NCBI GenBank assembly: GCA_014695325.1
Contig: JACJNZ010000077.1
Coordinates: forward strand, 1 to 64,000
Reading direction: 5' to 3'
Source: Cyanobacteria bacterium FACHB-502
Lineage (GTDB): Bacteria > Cyanobacteriota > Cyanobacteriia > Elainellales > Elainellaceae
Length of the DNA: 64,000 nucleotides
The position numbers and the translations under genes are program-made. Positions within the stretch are counted from its first letter, which is position 1, and the number at the start of each line of letters is the position of its first letter. Shown here one piece after another: positions 52,448 to 61,021 of the stretch. Under the pieces are notes generated by a model. It had not been told where the DNA came from. It did no database searches and saw nothing but the letters and a program-made list of their open reading frames with translations.

Positions 52448-53440
52448 TTATTTGGAAAGATTTGGTTCGACCACAGTGGGAAAACTCTCAAAGTTGCGTC
52501 GTACCCAATCCATTCCCACTTCGTTGTTGAGTTTAATCTTCTGCAGCGTGCCGGGATAAAGCTTGCCCAAAATGTCAGCATCCTGATCAATAACGACCTT
52601 ACCGAATTTGAGATAGGTACTGCCAAACAGCTTAAAGGCAGGATGTTTCGCTTGACCAAACAGCAGAATGTAGGTGCGAGTGCGATTCTCGGCTTCTGGG
52701 ACAAAGAAATGGCACTGTACTGCTTTGCCCAACGGCATTTCGCCATGAAAGATGATGAGAGAAGGAAAGTGATTTTCCAGGTGTGCCTTAATTACGGTGG
52801 GAAGCAGAAACAAATCAGGTTTTCTCAGTTTTTCGGTTAGCTTGTAGGGCGCGGTGGGCAAGTCATAGAACGCATGGGAATGATGCCCGTTATCCATAAA
52901 CTGATGAAACTCTACGTCTGTAATGCGAAACAAGTCTCGATGCGTGCCGTTTTGATGGTTGTAATCATGCATATTCAGCAGCATCGTTAATAAATCAGTT
53001 TCAACACTTCGATCGCCCGTATGCCCAATAAAGTAATATTTCTCGGCAATTTCATTCAACACAGTCGGAATCGGAACCTTGGGTTCGTATCCACCGTATG
53101 ACCAGATGAAATCGCCTTGAATAATGAGTTCTAAGGGCTTCAATTGCGGCAATGTTTTCTTACCAGAACCCGGTAGAACAGTGCAGCCCGCCGGATCAAA
53201 GGGCAAGGCATGAAACGGACACACTACCACACTGGTGCCGTCCTTTTGCATTTCGCACCATCCTTCTGACAGCATTGCTCCCATGTGCGGACAGGCATTG
53301 GGTAAGGCATGAATTTTCCCCACACCATCCTTCCACATCACATAATCAACGCCATACAAAGCAATCTTTTGGGGTTGGTTTACCTTTAGCATCGATTGAT
53401 GTGCCAATAGCCAAGGCGCACCAGGAAGCATCGAGCGCAT
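52448..53440 (-). CDS. Rieske [2Fe-2S] oxygenase, ring-hydroxylating type
   Basis: 330 residues from ATG, with GGAG 6 nt upstream. The Rieske cluster is at about residues 50-90: CPHMGAML and CPFHALPFD give the Cys-x-His and Cys-x2-His ligands. A mononuclear iron site is suggested by HDYNHQNGTHRDLF (about 155-168). Members of this group are terminal oxygenases acting on aromatic, chlorophyll-derived or steroid-like compounds; the substrate is not predictable here. No ferredoxin or reductase partner is adjacent. A TetR gene starts divergently, its likely ATG 52 bp away, so it probably controls this gene. Confidence 0.9.
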   Translation of the reverse strand: MRSMLPGAPWLLAHQSMLKVNQPQKIALYGVDYVMWKDGVGKIHALPNACPHMGAMLSEGWCEMQKDGTSVVVCPFHALPFDPAGCTVLPGSGKKTLPQLKPLELIIQGDFIWSYGGYEPKVPIPTVLNEIAEKYYFIGHTGDRSVETDLLTMLLNMHDYNHQNGTHRDLFRITDVEFHQFMDNGHHSHAFYDLPTAPYKLTEKLRKPDLFLLPTVIKAHLENHFPSLIIFHGEMPLGKAVQCHFFVPEAENRTRTYILLFGQAKHPAFKLFGSTYLKFGKVVIDQDADILGKLYPGTLQKIKLNNEVGMDWVRRNFESFPTVVEPNLSK

Positions 53441-53492
53441 GGTGTTCTCCGTTAAAGCTAAAATTGTGAAAAATCCGTCGTGTTTCCAAAAT

Positions 53493-54272
53493 ATGACAGA
53501 ACTTTCACATTCGTCAAGCCCTCATTCGCCCATCAATTTGCGTCGCCAGCCTAAACAGCAGCGCAGTAAGGCACGGGTTGAGAAAATTCTGGATGCGGCG
53601 GCGGCAGTGTTTGATGAGGTTGGCTATGAAGCTGCAACTACTCACATGATCGCTGCCAGAGCAGGAACGGCGATCGGTTCGCTCTATCAGTTTTTTCCAG
53701 ACAAAGCTGCCATCTTCAAGGCGATGGAGTTACGCCATGCAGAGCGAGTAAACGCATTTTGGCAACAGGCAGAGATTCCTTCGATCGTTCAGCTACCACT
53801 GCGCCAAATGATTCACACACTGGTATCAGCAACCGCAGAACTGTTTACCCATCCAGTATCGCGTGTGGTGTTTGTACAGTTTTATCTAGCCCGTCAGATT
53901 TTTCAATCGATCGATGAAAGTATGACGCAGGACGCGATCGGCTTTATGGCGAATATTCTGAAGCATCGAAACCCTGCCTTGCCTGAAGCGCAGTACAGTC
54001 TCCTTGCAGAGGTGTGTGTGCATAGCACCAATGCCCTGATTCTCGCGGCACTTCGCAGTCCTGATCCGGCACATCGTCAACGACTGATGCAGCAAATTGA
54101 GGACGTGATGGTGTCGTATTTGGAACCGTATGTGGGCGATCGTCAGTCAGGTGATGTAATGAAAGTAATGATATGCCCTCACTGCCAATCCAAACAGCTC
54201 TCAAAGAACGGGTATCGACGGGGCAAACAGTGCTATCTCTGTAAGGACTGTAGAAAGCAGTTTGTAATTTAG
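53493..54272 (+). CDS. TetR-family regulator with C-terminal IS1-type zinc ribbon
   Basis: 259 residues from the ATG at 53493. An in-frame ATG at 53439 would overlap the start codon of the divergent Rieske gene and leave no promoter space, so I prefer the later one. N-terminal helix-turn-helix: KARVEKILDAAAAVFDEVGYEAATTHMIAARAGTAIGSLYQFFPDKAAI. A C-terminal ligand domain follows to about residue 220. The last 35 residues, starting MKVMICPHCQSK and ending with CKDCRKQF, are a CPxC...CxxC zinc ribbon of the kind at the N-terminus of IS1-type transposase InsA. The stop is 6 bp from the permease stop, with no further transposase sequence. It probably represses the Rieske gene; the ribbon's role is unknown. 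Confidence 0.85.
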   Translation: MTELSHSSSPHSPINLRRQPKQQRSKARVEKILDAAAAVFDEVGYEAATTHMIAARAGTAIGSLYQFFPDKAAIFKAMELRHAERVNAFWQQAEIPSIVQLPLRQMIHTLVSATAELFTHPVSRVVFVQFYLARQIFQSIDESMTQDAIGFMANILKHRNPALPEAQYSLLAEVCVHSTNALILAALRSPDPAHRQRLMQQIEDVMVSYLEPYVGDRQSGDVMKVMICPHCQSKQLSKNGYRRGKQCYLCKDCRKQFVI

Positions 54273-54278
54273 TTTTGA

Positions 54279-55421
54279 TCAGCTCAACTGATTGCGAAAC
54301 TGTCGGATGCTGAAGCCAAGCAGGACGATCGCAAAAACAGCCAGCGCGACAATATTGATCCAGAGTTCACCCACGCCAACGCCTTTTAATAAAAATCCTC
54401 TGGCGATCGCCACATAATGTCTGAGAGGATTGAGCAGGGAAAGGTAGCGGAAAAAGGCAGGCATACTTTCGATCGGCGCAATTGCCCCCGAAGTTTGAAT
54501 GAGCGGCAAGTTAATAAAAAACGAAGTGAGAACGACCTGCCGCTGATTTTTAGAAATGGTCGCAAGCAAAATTCCGACCCCAATTCCCACACATAAATAC
54601 AGCGCAGAAATCAGGAAAAACAGCAGTAAATTACCGCGAAAAGGCAAATTAAACACAACCTTACCCACCGTCAGCGCAAGACACACATCCCCCAGCAGCA
54701 AAATAAACAGCGGCACAATTTTTGCTAGTAAAATTTCCCAGGCTTCTGCGGGAGTCATCAAAAGTTGTTCTAGGGTTCCAGTATCCTTTTCACGCACCAC
54801 GGTTGAAGAAGACACCAACGAGCCGGTGAGCGTGAGCACCAGTCCCAACACGCCCGGCACAAAAAACCAGCTACTAATTAAGCCCGGATTATACAGAAAA
54901 ACAACTTCAGGCTCGACCAAGGGAGACACAGGATTGGAATTCAATCGACGGCTAAATTGATTGATAATTTGCGAGAGATAACCGCTTGCGATTCCGGCAG
55001 TATTAGCGTCAACGCCGTCGATTAGAACCTGGACTTCTGCGGTTTCATTTTCTTTTAACTTGCGATCGAAATCTGGTGGAATAACCAAGCCTGCGGTAAT
55101 TTTGCCAAGCTGTACCTGTTTCCCTAATTCCGCTTCGCTATACAAATAATTTTCGGTTACAAAAATGCGGTTTTCGGTCATTGCCGTCACCAGTTCGCGA
55201 CTCGTGCTACTGTTGGCATAATCAACCACGCCCATCTTGATAAAATGCACGTCTGGGCTGAGTGCAAATCCATAGATTAAAAGCTGAATGGTGGGTGGAA
55301 AGATCAGCAAAAAGATAAGCTGTTTGTTGCGGAGAATTTGATTGATTTCTTTGCGAGCCAGTGCCCAAACGCGGCTATTCAGCAGGCGATCGATCAGTGG
55401 ATAATCAATTACTTTTTTCAT
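54279..55421 (-). CDS. ABC-2 type permease, YbhR-like
   Basis: 380 residues from ATG. One N-terminal membrane segment (LIFLLIFPPTIQLLIYGFALS), a large extracytoplasmic loop (about 50-180) and five C-terminal membrane segments, including VLGLVLTLTGSLVSSSTVVREKDTGTLEQLLMTPAEAWEILLAKI, the usual ABC-2 signature. It forms the channel of the efflux pump with the permease at 55604 and the ATPase at 56740, exporting drugs or other amphipathic compounds (inference from the YbhFSR family). It is the last gene of the operon. A 182-bp gap containing a nested repeat separates it from the preceding permease gene, so co-transcription may be reduced. Confidence 0.92.
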   Translation of the reverse strand: MKKVIDYPLIDRLLNSRVWALARKEINQILRNKQLIFLLIFPPTIQLLIYGFALSPDVHFIKMGVVDYANSSTSRELVTAMTENRIFVTENYLYSEAELGKQVQLGKITAGLVIPPDFDRKLKENETAEVQVLIDGVDANTAGIASGYLSQIINQFSRRLNSNPVSPLVEPEVVFLYNPGLISSWFFVPGVLGLVLTLTGSLVSSSTVVREKDTGTLEQLLMTPAEAWEILLAKIVPLFILLLGDVCLALTVGKVVFNLPFRGNLLLFFLISALYLCVGIGVGILLATISKNQRQVVLTSFFINLPLIQTSGAIAPIESMPAFFRYLSLLNPLRHYVAIARGFLLKGVGVGELWINIVALAVFAIVLLGFSIRQFRNQLS

Positions 55422-55497
55422 CGCTGAATCACCCTTAACTACACCTTTGTTTGCCTGATTGATGAAGTTGTTTAATCCGTCTTAAGAGTTCTACATT

Positions 55498-55569
55498 GCC
55501 CCTATTCTCTTCAAGCCTGGGAAACTTTGAGCATCTTAAAGAAAACTCGGTTTCCCTTAAAATTAGGGG
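55498..55569. repeat. Nested inverted repeat inserted between the two permease genes
   Basis: Outer arms CCCCTA (55499-55504) and TAGGGG (55564-55569) enclose inner arms GGGAAAC (55519-55525) and GTTTCCC (55550-55556). The element lies in the 182-bp gap inside the efflux operon. The other gaps of the operon are only 5 and 20 bp. Confidence 0.85.
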
Positions 55570-55603
55570 TTCGGGTCGTGGTGATCACGTTTCAAACCTC
55601 CTC

Positions 55604-56719
55604 TTAGTCCGGTAACTGCATTCGGCTCAAACTTTGCCGTGCCCGATTAAATAAAAATAATCCCAAAAGAATCAGCATTAACACTGCCCACCACACGCCA
55701 GTCCAGCCGGTTCCGCGCACAAAGGCATCCCGAATAATGGGAATGTAGTATCGGGCAGGAACAATATTAGAAATAAGCGACAGCGGAAAGGGAATATTAT
55801 TGAGCGGATAAATGAAACCAGAGAGCAGAAAAGCGGTGAGAAAGCCGATCGTTGCGACTGCCTGCACTGCTGCATTTTGACTTGCCGCTCTTGTGCCGAT
55901 CATGATGCCAAACAGCACCGCAACCAGAATAAACAGCGGCGTTCCAATCAAAAATGGAGTCGGGTCGCCTGTGAAGCGCAAGCCAAATAGAATCACACTT
56001 GTGCCGATAATTAACAGTCCTTCCAATAAACCAATCACTAGATAGGCAAATGCCTTGCCGAGAATCAATTCGATCGCACTTAAACTGGAAGCATAAACCT
56101 GTAAAATTGTGCCCTGTTCTTTTTCCCGCACCATTGCCAGCGATGATAGCAGCGATGGATAAATCCATAAAATCACCGCACAGGTTCCCGGCACAATGTA
56201 GAGCGATTCTTTGCGTCCCGGATTGAACCAAATACGAATTCGAGGAACAATTAATGGCTGATTTTGCTGCAGTCCAGAAACTCTGACAAAGTACCGCGTG
56301 GTAGACTCAATGCTGCCGCGAATTACCCGCGCATTATTGACATCACTTCCATCTATCAAAACTTGAACCGTAACAGATTCGCCGTTCTTAAGATTGCGCG
56401 AGAAATCGGGTGGAATAATAATTCCAGCTGTCGCTTTGCCCCGATCGATCATCTCAACCACCGACTGATTTAAGGGACGTTCAACTAAATTCAGCTGATT
56501 TGTCGCATAGAGTCTTTCGATATAACTGCGGCTTAGCAGTGTATTATCTAAATCCTGTACGGTGAGCGGAATATTTTTTGCTTCCAATCGAATTGCATAG
56601 CCAAAAATAAACAGTGTTAATAAAGGCAGCAAAAACGCCAGTGCAACAGTTAATCGATCGCGGCGGAACTGAGCTAATTCTTTGATGCACTGAGACCAAA
56701 TTCGCTGCGGCTTAATCAT
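55604..56719 (-). CDS. ABC-2 type permease, YbhS-like
   Basis: 371 residues from ATG. The topology is the same as its partner: an N-terminal segment (VALAFLLPLLTLFIFGYAIR), a big extracytoplasmic loop with DGSDVNNARVIRGSIE, and C-terminal membrane segments with LAMVREKEQGTILQVYASSLSAIELILGKAFAYLVIG and LSGFIYPLNNIPFPLSLISNIVPARYYIPIIRDAF. It starts 20 bp after the end of the ATPase gene. It should form a heterodimeric channel with the permease at 54279. The closest known architecture is E. coli YbhFSR. Confidence 0.93.
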   Translation of the reverse strand: MIKPQRIWSQCIKELAQFRRDRLTVALAFLLPLLTLFIFGYAIRLEAKNIPLTVQDLDNTLLSRSYIERLYATNQLNLVERPLNQSVVEMIDRGKATAGIIIPPDFSRNLKNGESVTVQVLIDGSDVNNARVIRGSIESTTRYFVRVSGLQQNQPLIVPRIRIWFNPGRKESLYIVPGTCAVILWIYPSLLSSLAMVREKEQGTILQVYASSLSAIELILGKAFAYLVIGLLEGLLIIGTSVILFGLRFTGDPTPFLIGTPLFILVAVLFGIMIGTRAASQNAAVQAVATIGFLTAFLLSGFIYPLNNIPFPLSLISNIVPARYYIPIIRDAFVRGTGWTGVWWAVLMLILLGLFLFNRARQSLSRMQLPD

Positions 56720-56739
56720 TGCGCTGTCCTCTGAATTGG

Positions 56740-58782
56740 CTATGCTTCTGCTCGCTGCACAATACCGATAAACGCATCTTCGAGCGTGAAAGAAATTGGG
56801 CGAATTGATTGAACTTCAATGCGGGTTCCGTCTGGCTTCTGATAGGCAAATAGCCAGGTTTTAATTTGCGGCATCTCGCGATCGGGATTGTCTAAAACCA
56901 GGTGAAGTCGATCGCCAAAAATCGAGACGCGCCAGGGTTCCATCTGGGTTTTTAGCAAATCTGAAGCTGCCTGATTTTGGTTAGTTACCAGCTCGATTAA
57001 TCGTCCGGGCTGCGCTGCTTTGATCTGGGTCGGCGATCCTTCTGCAACGACCTCGCCCGCCACCAGAAATCCCATGTAATTACAGTGTTCCGCTTCTTCG
57101 AGATAGTGCGTTGTTACCAAAACGGCTGTGCCGCGACGGGCAAAATCCTCAATTAACCGCCAGAACTGCCGCCGCGCCAGAGGGTCAACTCCCGAAGTTG
57201 GCTCATCTAGAAACAGGATTTCCGGCTCATGCATGACGGATGCACCAAAGGCAACGCGCTGCTTCCAGCCTCCGGGCAAGCCTCCGGTGATTAAGTCCTC
57301 CTGTCCTTCTAAACCGCAGATGTGCAGCACCCAGTCAATTTTTTCGCGTCGCTGCGATCGAGGAACGCCATACACCCCGCAATAGAATTCGAGATTTTGG
57401 ACGATCGAGAGGTCGTCGTACAGCGTGAACTTCTGGCTCATGTAGCCAATCCGTCGCCGCAAATCGGGGTCGCGCAAATTACTGGTTTGTCCTGCCAGGG
57501 AAATTTCGCCGCCGCTGGCAGAGAGTAAGCCGCAGAGCATTTTGATCGTGGTGGTTTTTCCGGCTCCGTTTGCGCCCAACAAGCCGTAGATTTCGCCATA
57601 GCGAACTTGCAGCGTCACATCTTTAACCGCCTGAAAGTTGCCGAAGGTTTTGTAGAGATGATGGGTTTCGATCGCCGCAGTTCCTTTCGCAGCTCTGGAT
57701 CCTTCGCGATCCGATCCGAAGGAGTTCCCGCTTGGGAGTAATCGCGGAAAGGGCACAAACGGCGACTCAGCCCCCTGATGGCGCAACTGGGTCACGAAGA
57801 CATTTTCCAGCGTCACGTCAACGGGTTCGATTTCCGATATTTTCAGCCGCTCCTGTTGGGCAATTTGCTGAATCGTTTTCGTTCCCTCTTCCGGCGAATG
57901 CACCAGCACATCCAGCCGATCGCCAAAGGTCTGCACGTCTACTAAAGCCGAATCGCGGGTTTCACCCAACGGGGAAGGGCTTCGCATCGCTGCTAACAGT
58001 GCCCGTTCTACGGCAGCAAGCTGAGGAGTTCGCAGTTCCAGTCGAGATAAACCCAGATTTTGCCTGAGCTGGCGCAATGTTCCGGTCTGCTGAATCTTGC
58101 CTTCATACATCAGGGAAATTCGGTTGCAGCGTTCTGCTTCGTCCAGGTAGGGAGTTGCGACTACGATCGTCATGCCCTGACTTGCCAACGTCGCCAGCAC
58201 ATCCCAAAATTCCCGTCGCGAAACCGGGTCAACGCCTGTCGTGGGTTCATCCAGCAGCAAAATTTCCGGCTCCGACACCAGCGCACAGCAAAGGGCAAGC
58301 TTCTGCTTCATGCCGCCCGATAGCTGACCCGCCAACCGATCGCCAAACCGATCGAGATCCATCAGCTTGAGATAGCGATCGCGCCGCTCCTGAAAACGAT
58401 CGGACGGAATCTGGCGCAGTCCGGCACTGTAGCGTATGTTTTCGTCCAGGCTCAAGTCCAGATACAGCGAAAACTGCTGCGTCAAATAGCCAATGCCCAA
58501 CCGCGCATCGCGAGGCGATCGTCCCAACACCTGAATCTCGCCTGCGCTTGCCTCCATCACGCCCGCCAGAATTTGAAACGTCGTCGTCTTTCCGGCTCCG
58601 TCAGGACCAATCAAGCCAAAAATCTCGCCGCGCTGCACCTCAAAATCAATGCTCTGAACGGCGATCGTCTGATTGTTCTTTTTGCCATAGTGTTTTTGCA
58701 GTCCTGCCACTCGAATCACGGGTTCTGTTGCAGCAGGAACCGGACGGGCAGAAGCAAAGGAAGCAGGCTGAGTCTGAGTCAT
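56740..58782 (-). CDS. ABC transporter with two fused ATP-binding domains, YbhF-like
   Basis: 680 residues from ATG. Domain 1: Walker A GPDGAGKTT (about residue 60), signature LSGGMKQKL, Walker B ILLLDEPTTGVDP. Domain 2 (from about 375): Walker A GANGAGKTT, signature GLPGGWKQRV (LSGGQ replaced by LPGGW), Walker B ILFLDEPTSGVDP. Duplicated ATPases of this kind drive export through ABC-2 permeases, as in E. coli YbhF. The altered signature in the second domain resembles other YbhF-type proteins. It lies 5 bp behind the HlyD gene and 20 bp before the first permease gene, a tight operon. Confidence 0.95.
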   Translation of the reverse strand: MTQTQPASFASARPVPAATEPVIRVAGLQKHYGKKNNQTIAVQSIDFEVQRGEIFGLIGPDGAGKTTTFQILAGVMEASAGEIQVLGRSPRDARLGIGYLTQQFSLYLDLSLDENIRYSAGLRQIPSDRFQERRDRYLKLMDLDRFGDRLAGQLSGGMKQKLALCCALVSEPEILLLDEPTTGVDPVSRREFWDVLATLASQGMTIVVATPYLDEAERCNRISLMYEGKIQQTGTLRQLRQNLGLSRLELRTPQLAAVERALLAAMRSPSPLGETRDSALVDVQTFGDRLDVLVHSPEEGTKTIQQIAQQERLKISEIEPVDVTLENVFVTQLRHQGAESPFVPFPRLLPSGNSFGSDREGSRAAKGTAAIETHHLYKTFGNFQAVKDVTLQVRYGEIYGLLGANGAGKTTTIKMLCGLLSASGGEISLAGQTSNLRDPDLRRRIGYMSQKFTLYDDLSIVQNLEFYCGVYGVPRSQRREKIDWVLHICGLEGQEDLITGGLPGGWKQRVAFGASVMHEPEILFLDEPTSGVDPLARRQFWRLIEDFARRGTAVLVTTHYLEEAEHCNYMGFLVAGEVVAEGSPTQIKAAQPGRLIELVTNQNQAASDLLKTQMEPWRVSIFGDRLHLVLDNPDREMPQIKTWLFAYQKPDGTRIEVQSIRPISFTLEDAFIGIVQRAEA

Positions 58783-58787
58783 ATTGG

Positions 58788-60035
58788 CTAACGATTAGGT
58801 TCGATTGTTGCGTCCGCAGGCATTCCCGGCTTGGCAAATCCGCCCGGTTCCTCGATCGCCAGCTTCACACCAAACACCTGCTGCACCCGGTCTTCTCGAA
58901 AGTAGATATTCTCCGGGGTAAACGAGGCTTCCGAATCAATCTCGACCACGCTGGCAACCAGTGGGCGGTCTGGGTCAGAGTCAAGGTACACGTTCGCACG
59001 CTGCCCAACTCGGACTAAGCCAATCTGTCCTGCTGGAATAAAGCCGCGCAGATACACCGTGTTTAAATCGAGCACAGTCAGCAGCGTTTTGCCTGCCGTC
59101 ACGACCGTTCCCGGTTCTACGGTGCGATCGGTAATCACGCCGTTAATCGGGCTATTGATCGTTAGATCGTTGAGCTGCGCCACAATCCGCTGACGTTCTG
59201 CTTCGGCATTGCGGACTTCTGCCTGGGCGGCGGCGAGCTGTGCCCGTGCCTGCGCTACCTGAGCATTGAGGCGATCGAGCTGCACGGTGTTAATTTCGGG
59301 GTTAAGCGTGGTGGTTTGCGTCTGAGTCAGTCCGCCCTGAGCCGCCGTAATCTGACGCTGGGCTGCATTCACCGCTGCTTGCCGACTAGTGAGGGTTGCC
59401 TGTGCGGTGCGAAATGCGGCATTCGCTTCGTCAAATCGCTGCTGAGTGACTGCCCCTTCCTGGACGAGCTGAGCAAATCGATCGCGATCCTGGCGGGCTA
59501 GCTCAAGCTGTGCCTGGGCCTCTGTTACCTGTGCCCGTGCCTGTTCGAGCTGTGCCTGGGCGGCGGCGACCTGCGCCTCTGCCTGAGAAACACGCCCCTG
59601 CGTATCGCCCTCTGCTTGCTGAAGCCGCAACTGTGCCTCCTCGATCTGAGTTTGCAGCACATTGAGCTGGAGCTGAGCATTTTGTACCTGATTTTTGGCA
59701 GATTGAATCCGGGCTTCGGTTCCGGCGAGCTGTGCCCGCAGTTCATCATCGTCCAGCCGCGCTAAAAGCTGTCCTTTTTGCACCTGTGCCCCTTCCCGCA
59801 CGGTGACTTCTTCGACTCGCCCCGGCACCTGAGTGCCCACATCTGTTTCGTAGCCTTCAATCCGTCCACTGAGCTGTAGTTCGTCTGTAGCGGGGCGCGA
59901 CAGAAAATACCAGGCAGTTAATCCTCCCCCGGCAGCCAACAGGGCGATCGGCAACAGAACCCTTTTGCGGCGCGATCGGGGCTGAACTACGGGCGGAACG
60001 GCAGTCTTTTCAGAACTGGGAAGTGTTTGTGCCAT
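58788..60035 (-). CDS. HlyD-family membrane-fusion (periplasmic adaptor) protein, YbhG-like
   Basis: 415 residues from ATG. A membrane anchor at about 23-45 (KRVLLPIALLAAGGGLTAWYFLS), a biotinyl-lipoyl half-motif (VEEVTVREGAQVQKGQLLARLDDDEL), a long alpha-hairpin coiled coil of Gln/Ala heptads (about 95-290), the second lipoyl half (LTINSPINGVITDRTVEPGTVVTAGKTLLTV), and a C-terminal beta domain. It links the inner-membrane transporter to an outer-membrane channel. First gene of the efflux operon, divergent from the TetR gene at 60407. The adaptor probably recruits a TolC-like protein encoded elsewhere. Confidence 0.94.
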   Translation of the reverse strand: MAQTLPSSEKTAVPPVVQPRSRRKRVLLPIALLAAGGGLTAWYFLSRPATDELQLSGRIEGYETDVGTQVPGRVEEVTVREGAQVQKGQLLARLDDDELRAQLAGTEARIQSAKNQVQNAQLQLNVLQTQIEEAQLRLQQAEGDTQGRVSQAEAQVAAAQAQLEQARAQVTEAQAQLELARQDRDRFAQLVQEGAVTQQRFDEANAAFRTAQATLTSRQAAVNAAQRQITAAQGGLTQTQTTTLNPEINTVQLDRLNAQVAQARAQLAAAQAEVRNAEAERQRIVAQLNDLTINSPINGVITDRTVEPGTVVTAGKTLLTVLDLNTVYLRGFIPAGQIGLVRVGQRANVYLDSDPDRPLVASVVEIDSEASFTPENIYFREDRVQQVFGVKLAIEEPGGFAKPGMPADATIEPNR

Positions 60036-60179
60036 ACGGGGAACTGCCAGAGTCGAATGATTTGAGAGAAATCTTTGAGGGGGACTTGAGACAGATTTCA
60101 GAGAAATACGGGGAAAAGAAAGAGATAGAAGGAGATACAGAGAGAAATAAGTTTTGAAAAGGGAGCCGGGGAAGGAACT

Positions 60180-60216
60180 TTGATCACACTAGACTGTCTA
60201 GTATGATTACAAGCAA
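60180..60216. promoter_or_regulatory. Palindromic operator with overlapping divergent promoters
   Basis: ACTAGACTGTCTAGT (60188-60202) is a perfect palindrome, arms ACTAGAC/GTCTAGT around one base. It sits in the spacer of a plus-strand promoter, TTGATC (60180-60185), 16 bp, TATGAT (60202-60207). On the minus strand TTGCTT (60216-60211) and TAGTGT (60191-60186) could serve the efflux genes, though with a long 19-bp spacer. This is a likely binding site of the TetR protein encoded at 60407, covering both promoters. Confidence 0.75.
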
Positions 60217-60406
60217 AATCCTAGCGCGATCGCCCAAACCGGACAAGCATCCCTGAAAATTGTTTACATAGCAGGGATTAAACGACCCTGATCTAGGAGC
60301 ATGAACCAAATTCTTGGGTCTGACCTCTTGAACAGGATAGAGCTTTAACCCCCTTGAACCCCTCTTTGAAACCCACCCCTTGAAGCCAGAGACAAGCAAA
60401 GCCACA

Positions 60407-61021
60407 ATGCACAGCAGTTCCCCCCTTGAGGTAATCAGCAGCGACAAGCGAGAGCAGATTTTGCAGGGCGCAATGCAGGTGTTTTTAAGCCAGGGCTACG
60501 CCAGCACCAGCATGGATCGGGTTGCGGCGGCGGCGGGTGTCTCCAAGCAAACTATCTATAGTTACTTTCAAGATAAACAAGGGCTATTTACCGCTCTAAT
60601 CGAACGGGTGACGATCGATCGAATGCAGCACATCTTCCGTGCCGAGGAATTGAGCGACGAACCCGAACTGCTGCGATACTTCGCCGAATCGTTTCTTCAA
60701 AAAATGGCAAACCCAGAATTCCTGAGCCTGCTGCGAATTATTATTTCTGAATCTGCCCGCTTCCCCGAACTCGCCAACCTCTACACCCGCACGGTCATTC
60801 AGCGAGGGCGATCGATCCTGACCGACTACTTCCAGCGTCACCCCGAACTTCGCATCGCCGACCCCGAAGCCACTGCCCAGATCTTCTGCGGCTCCCTGAT
60901 CTCTTTCTTAATTGCTCAAGAAATTCTCTATGGCAAAGAGGTTGCACCCCTGGCAGGCGATCGCCTGGTCAATGCCCTGGTCACCCTCTTCCTCGATCGC
61001 ACCTCTCCCCATCCCAACTAA
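60407..61021 (+). CDS. TetR/AcrR-family repressor of the efflux operon (CecR-like context)
   Basis: 204 residues from the ATG at 60407; a TTG at 60380 is in frame but less likely. Helix-turn-helix: KREQILQGAMQVFLSQGYASTSMDRVAAAAGVSKQTIYSYFQDKQGLFTALI. The remainder is a helical ligand-binding and dimerisation domain with NPEFLSLLRIIISESARFPELANLY, as in AcrR/YbiH (CecR) regulators. It is divergent from the HlyD-ATPase-permease operon. The perfect 15-bp palindrome in the shared 371-bp gap is the likely operator. Release by the exported compound is the expected logic. Confidence 0.93.
   Translation: MHSSSPLEVISSDKREQILQGAMQVFLSQGYASTSMDRVAAAAGVSKQTIYSYFQDKQGLFTALIERVTIDRMQHIFRAEELSDEPELLRYFAESFLQKMANPEFLSLLRIIISESARFPELANLYTRTVIQRGRSILTDYFQRHPELRIADPEATAQIFCGSLISFLIAQEILYGKEVAPLAGDRLVNALVTLFLDRTSPHPN

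Follow-up and report, generated by a model that had tools for sequence, protein, structure and literature searches.

Local repressors of the TetR/AcrR family have TetR_N and TetR_C domains, a characteristic fold and a palindromic site in the promoter region of a divergent target gene, a plan that the locus described here appears to share. TldR proteins descended from TnpB. The excerpted text of PMC13418256 describes them as RNA-guided transcription factors, and that of PMC12428005 presents InsA of the insertion sequence IS1 as a strong repressor whose zinc finger and helix-turn-helix (HTH) are needed to bind IS1 ends. Among the titles and abstract openings listed, in which few subscription journals are covered, no TetR-InsA or TetR-zinc-ribbon fusion is reported, which is weak evidence of absence, and the terms IS1 and zinc ribbon are missing from the main text of a review on recruited mobile elements (PMC8987985).

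We analysed a window of 64,000 nucleotides from Cyanobacteria bacterium FACHB-502, in which a TetR frame ends in a zinc ribbon of the IS1 type. Comparison with related loci makes it likely that the product is a local TetR repressor of the divergent Rieske gene and of itself, equipped with a domesticated C-terminal piece of IS1 InsA.

Domains, predicted fold and distribution of the fusion

The frame at 53439-54272 on the plus strand encodes 277 amino acids without a stop. The likely start of the gene is the ATG at 53493 (gene 53493-54272, plus strand), downstream of the 53439 at which the sequence-only reading began the frame; MT- stands at this place in 42 of the 43 ribbon-only rows of the window's clade, the remaining row being truncated by a contig start. 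The TetR_N DNA-binding domain (PF00440, 53586-53726, plus strand) scores 55.3 bits against a Pfam cut-off of 24, and the TetR_C_15 domain (PF17918, 53796-54122, plus strand) 77.2 bits against 26.8; the protein has the TetR_N HTH together with the helical C-terminal domain and fold of the family. The C-terminal ribbon (CPHC...CKDC, 54174-54266, plus strand) is a four-cysteine remnant of InsA recognized by two NCBIfam models at residues 246-276 of the 277-residue frame, NF050000 (IS1_IS1595_Zn, 45.8 bits against a cut-off of 28) and NF048018 (IS256_N_4Cys, 44.2 against 27), though the Pfam model of the InsA ribbon, PF03811, reaches 15.5 bits, below its cut-off of 26.1. The InsA HTH that follows the ribbon in 16 of 78 ribbon-bearing relatives is absent from the window protein. 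A tblastn search at E<=1 gave no InsB match in the downstream sequence of 93 related loci, of which up to 2.5 kb each was covered, less where a contig ended; of an IS1 element, with its InsB/DDE part and both inverted repeats, the tip of the left end alone was seen, in the linker of some ribbon+HTH members. The sequence-only reading had thus correctly described a TetR frame running stop-free into an InsA-type ribbon, with the rest of the transposase missing.

In the predicted fold of the window protein the TetR core is confident, the linker loose (pLDDT under 50 at residues 220-224) and the ribbon ordered (about 89). For the ribbon+HTH form the prediction shows much the same core and ribbon and, in addition, a three-helix unit; its tail is less confidently modelled. 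A Foldseek search of the PDB returned TetR structures as the best matches of the window model (E 1.5e-6), and wherever a name is given for one of the best 50 neighbours of either model, it is that of a TetR-type or other transcriptional regulator.

Of 60 relatives, 13 have a full-length orthologue with the ribbon, as do 13 of the 386 genomes sampled across the phylum; the own genome is among the 13 each time. Such recurrence argues against a chance fusion. Any match, paralogues included, was found in 28 of the 386. In the named collection, the best 80 of at least 532 confirmed stretches are all cyanobacterial by title, save one metagenome-assembled genome titled Gracilibacteria, which is perhaps misassigned. 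Ten plasmid records gave a match, which in three of them spans 80% or more of the protein. Given these near full-length plasmid copies and the patchy distribution, horizontal transfer may have aided the spread of the fusion.

From the fetched loci, a profile built on 14 ribbon-bearing proteins picked 130 distinct frames, and after removal of six fragments 124 rows entered a tree of the TetR core only, made by a quick method with SH-aLRT support only. The ribbon is present in 78 of these 124 profile-selected TetRs, joined in frame in the same way at identities down to about 40%. One clade of 93 rows (SH-aLRT 98) contains every C-terminally extended TetR, the other 31 rows being unextended; its tails are ribbon only (62), ribbon+HTH (16), winged-HTH-like (wHTH, 10) or none (5). 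The window's own clade (46 rows, SH-aLRT 98) comprises 43 ribbon-only and three tail-less rows.

Two further observations concern related loci. In ten sister TetRs (L115-L118, L127, L133, L029-L031 and L059) a C-terminal wHTH-like domain marked by an RR(T/S)LQR motif replaces the InsA piece; profile searches gave weak matches only by which to name this domain, and GCGACA...TGTCGC repeats upstream of L115 and L117, with part of one at L116 (by eye), are a candidate wHTH site. At L045 (G018:C215, 6690 to about 8118) a second gene copy has its TetR and ribbon parts separated by about 1.4 kb of insert containing a transposase-like frame (by eye), and an intact copy, L046, is present in the same genome.

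The divergent Rieske gene and the putative operator

The presumed target, on the grounds of domain match and conserved linkage, is the divergent gene with a Rieske [2Fe-2S] domain at 52448-53440 on the minus strand. Such a gene lies adjacent and divergent in all 59 testable ribbon-only members, in 12 of 16 ribbon+HTH members, in 7 of 10 wHTH members (at a distance of over 600 bp in one) and, among the tail-less rows of the extended clade, in 4 of 5; it is beside none of 30 testable unextended paralogues, and four loci had too little upstream sequence to be counted. It was not found for 8 of the 90 testable extended-clade members, and the four ribbon+HTH loci without it in the upstream stretch searched (L112, L129, L130 and L134) may have a different target. 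The best NCBIfam match of the Rieske protein, 4beta-methylsterol monooxygenase, reaches 44 bits against a cut-off of 600, and membership of that family was rejected. Its only PDB sequence match is 3-ketosteroid 9alpha-hydroxylase (72 residues, E 0.0005), and VanA_C stays under the Pfam cut-off.

A candidate 26-bp site, TaTGAcAaAt..tTCat.TTTgTcAA, is located between the two genes in two copies, putative site 1 (TGTGAAAAATCCGTCGTGTTTCCAAA, 53465-53490, plus strand) and putative site 2 (TATGACAGAACTTTCACATTCGTCAA, 53492-53517, plus strand), the latter covering the TetR start codon and first codons. Its conserved TGA-N8-TCA palindrome turns up in 45 of the 46 loci of the window's clade whichever of the tested thresholds is applied, and in at most 1.1% of shuffles, with a model trained on 23 sites from the 46 other loci only and a seed pattern picked after viewing all loci. 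The strong copy in the window's clade starts one base upstream of the TetR ATG, so that the first codons of TetR are at the same time the putative operator. The weaker copy, site 1, begins 27 bp away on the Rieske side and was recovered out of sample in 25 of 46 loci at the lowest threshold and in 4 of 46 at threshold 10.

A putative sigma70-type promoter toward the Rieske gene, TTGACG-N18-TATTTT (53517-53488, minus strand), has the site-2 palindrome inside it, and GGAG precedes the Rieske start in the window. The pattern TTGAC(A/G)-N16-19-TA(T/A)NNT was found in the searched stretch of 81 of 92 loci, compared with 1.1 in shuffles. The minus-strand -35 box is the right end of the putative site in 79 of the 92, and the site and promoter counts are not independent because half of the promoter pattern belongs to the site. 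A scan of the window alone found two promoter-like sequences, not clearly above the shuffle mean of 1.0 (sd 1.0), and the case for the promoter is therefore a cross-locus one.

Each operator pattern occurs once in the window's own genome, with no further copy, which points to a regulator of this locus only. In the ribbonless loci L131 and L157 the operator is unchanged; wHTH members have it too, as do 5 of the 31 unextended paralogues. It is therefore best taken as TetR's own site and lends no support to the ribbon as a DNA reader, nor to the proposal that the ribbon reads part of it. We infer that TetR dimers would bind the TGA-N8-TCA palindrome within the putative Rieske promoter, and in the window's clade also over the TetR start codon, and would keep both the Rieske gene and tetR off until the TetR_C pocket takes up a small ligand, for which the Rieske substrate or a related compound is the probable candidate. 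The ribbon on its flexible linker would act as an auxiliary module, most likely adding a DNA contact or promoting higher-order assembly.

On the other side of the fusion gene, 54279-61021 holds convergent genes of an ABC-2-type exporter (two permeases, a double ATPase and an HlyD-type protein) and another TetR gene, at 60380-61021, divergent from them; the ABC names were assigned by reading, HlyD and TetR by Pfam. The exporter genes (54279-60035, minus strand) are a less favoured target, as they are convergent and their own TetR gene may be that at 60380-61021. Among the extended-clade loci compared (5 kb on each side, less where a contig or locus ended), they adjoin the fusion in the window only.

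Kinship with InsA and traces of an IS1 left end

The tail of the 16 ribbon+HTH members is a whole InsA-like module. In one of them, L100, residues 213-292 match positions 1-81 of the 199-position IS1 transposase model (E 1.2e-25); its 90.7 bits lie under the cut-off of 100, which is set for the whole transposase. All 51 members of alignment A2 match both this model and NF050000 at E<=0.001. The search for IS1-type sequences in the own genome (G000, 6.6 Mb, 100 contigs) that the sequence-only reading had suggested yielded InsA-like proteins with ribbons 61% and 50% identical, and sequences matching the fused module at E<=1e-10 occur in 98 of 195 genomes. In a 47-row tree of InsA-like sequences (80 columns; the tails of L180 and L204 read as IS1 type), the 16 fused modules form one clade (98/86); near relatives are favoured in this tree, because for its 31 other rows the sources were the top-scoring matches to a fused module and the own genome. 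A tree of just the ribbon segments, with 33 columns, neither supports nor rejects a single clade of the 78 fused ribbons (four changes, p-AU 0.573).

Stand-alone cyanobacterial InsA-like proteins with ribbon and HTH, and by eye without an InsB-type tail (L175-L178, L181, L182, L184, L186, L188, L194 and L199), form a group with the IS1-type row L179 that is separate from the remaining IS1 proteins (96/61). TGCACA stands shortly upstream of the ATG in several of their genes, and they are possibly domesticated InsA regulators.

Many cyanobacterial IS1-type ends are GGCGTTGCAYAAT or near it. The two ends match each other across 22-26 bases in L179, L190, L193, L203 and L204; the tips of L187 and L189 diverge past GGCGTTGC, and L196 has a shorter match (12 of 14 bases) 22 nt upstream of its insA ATG. 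TGCACAA, the tip of the IS1 inverted repeats, is found in the linker of 11 of the 16 ribbon+HTH members, compared with 0 of 62 ribbon-only members. It lies 29 nt before the first cysteine codon in nine of them, 61 nt in L113 and 20 nt in L130; variants occur in L112, L124, L125 and the ribbon-only row L054. The best alignment of a linker to an IS1 end (L103 to L196) outscores all 200 shuffles, in a test of 19 rows, several closely related, against six left ends, two of them unconfirmed, so that its p values are indicative only. In the window's own linker the likeness is no longer seen (p 0.04-0.64).

These remnants point to an IS1-type element that probably entered the 3' end of a tetR gene. 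The reading frame would have continued across the left inverted repeat to insA, so that the product was TetR-ribbon-HTH with the left end as linker; the transposition part would have been lost, and in several lineages, the window's included, the ribbon would later have been retained without the InsA HTH. The donor could also have been an insA gene of IS1 origin standing on its own. It is improbable that the TetR lineage captured InsA on several separate occasions, instead of once with repeated HTH loss: the interleaving of ribbon-only, ribbon+HTH and wHTH tails on the TetR tree (13 changes in all) and the indecisive ribbon tree would fit such captures, whereas the single clade of fused InsA modules, the recurrence of much the same junction sequence and the nesting of the ribbon-only rows L109 and L110 among ribbon+HTH rows (SH-aLRT 96 and 99) speak for the one event.

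Selection on the ribbon and the junction element

In a pool of 378 pairs from the window's clade, dN/dS comes to 0.030 for TetR_N, 0.077 for TetR_C, 0.404 for the linker and 0.059 for the ribbon, absolute values that are rough because dS is near saturation. The four cysteines, present in 78 of 78 rows, are required by the label 'ribbon' itself; beyond that requirement, N239, G240, Q246 and Q256 are invariant in all 78. By these sequence measures the ribbon is under purifying selection, and its retention indicates that it probably does some job in the repressor. A fifth ribbon cysteine, Cys247 (54231-54233, ...KQCYLC...), is found in all 43 ribbon-only rows of the window's clade and in L102, L105 and L106; the remaining 32 of the 78 ribbon rows have Arg at this position.

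A recent read-in, in which a transposon end broke TetR, would account for a transposon-type ribbon with the remaining transposase missing, and was one arm of the sequence-only reading. For the origin, a read-in from an inserted element is probably right, given the inverted-repeat tip in the linkers of the whole-InsA members; 'broken TetR' is wrong, for the frame is intact, diverged and common to many genomes. As an account of the present gene, a recent break is hardly credible and was discarded in view of the intact conserved orthologues (78 of the 124 TetRs share the in-frame fusion, at identities as low as about 40%), the purifying selection and the constantly linked gene. The occurrence of ribbon-bearing orthologues elsewhere, the very observation against which the earlier idea of a broken gene had been set, favours its other arm, a domesticated module.

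It is somewhat unlikely that the ribbon of this domesticated module is kept for a role other than DNA binding, such as a zinc-dependent dimer or tetramer contact, partner docking, or metal or redox sensing in connection with the iron-sulphur oxygenase. The independence of the operator from the ribbon, the repeated loss of the HTH with retention of the ribbon and the distribution of the fifth cysteine are consistent with such a role, against which stand the descent of the ribbon from a DNA-binding protein and the DNA-binding-like wHTH that sister lineages hold at the same place (by eye, with weak profile matches).

The junction element GTAATGAAAGTAATGA (54156-54171, plus strand), possibly derived from the IS1 left end, is constrained at synonymous sites. 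Val222 is GTA in 71 of 72 rows and Val225 in 68 of 69 (139 of 141 valines together), and Ile227 is ATA in 35 of the 41 rows having Ile there, compared with 26% GTA among Val codons and 14% ATA among Ile codons in the same genes. The Val222 and Val225 columns show one synonymous change each on the tree; the next of 58 fourfold columns is Thr2, within the operator, with three changes among 45 rows, against a median of 0.36 changes per row. Ser8, another operator position, shows none in 42 rows. This codon fixation suggests that the text of GTAATGAAAGTAATGA is under a constraint of its own, of much the same strength as that on the operator. Of the 62 ribbon-only members 46 have the exact 16-mer, and of the 16 ribbon+HTH members 2; for AAGTAATGA the counts are 51 and 13. 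The own genome holds a single exact copy of GTAATGAAAGTAATGA, and five at two mismatches compared with seven for a reversed control pattern. Neither a conserved RNA structure (RNAalifold 0.0, 62 sequences) nor a third TetR site (best score -3.0) was found at the junction, and only 10 of 78 rows have an SD-like sequence 14 nt or less from the first internal Met.

One tentative and rather unlikely reading is that the fused ribbon still reads an old piece of IS1 left end kept at the junction, which would serve as an intragenic operator or in a loop. The protein would then hold two distinct sites simultaneously: with its TetR part the promoter, and with the ribbon a stretch of its own coding sequence some 640 bp further downstream. 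In that case the repressor would have taken over a transposase domain together with the site to which this domain binds. The main rival to this reading is an internal translation start, by which the gene would yield the fusion and a free ribbon (or InsA-like) protein. A Met at position 226 in 75 of 78 rows, where InsA has its own start Met, and strong synonymous constraint exactly at the junction agree with such a start; it is nevertheless doubtful, considering the scarcity of SD-like sequences and the constraint on exact codons, which goes beyond the need of an AU-rich start.

On the preferred reading, a domesticated InsA piece on a local repressor, this locus lets one trace how a bacterial repressor came by an additional module of DNA-binding type that an insertion sequence supplied. 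Both the whole-InsA and the ribbon-only form survive; the linker of the former still shows remnants of the inverted repeat, and the sequences bear marks of prolonged selection. Since a different module, the wHTH, occupies this position in sister proteins, the lineage may offer a view of how extra modules are gained and swapped by repressors, and the junction constraint raises the sharp question of whether a captured transposase domain keeps its own binding site inside the host gene. In contrast to other local repressors of the TetR/AcrR family, these proteins bear an extra C-terminal ribbon, ribbon+HTH or wHTH, and in the window's clade putative site 2 lies within the repressor's own first codons. 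With IS1 InsA they share the ribbon, and in 16 relatives also the HTH, but these are fused to TetR without InsB or a mobile element, and the window protein has the ribbon only. As in TldR, on the evidence of the excerpts of PMC13418256, a transposon-encoded nucleic-acid-binding protein would have become a bacterial regulator; TldR is guided by RNA, whereas here a small module of DNA-binding type has been joined to an existing repressor.
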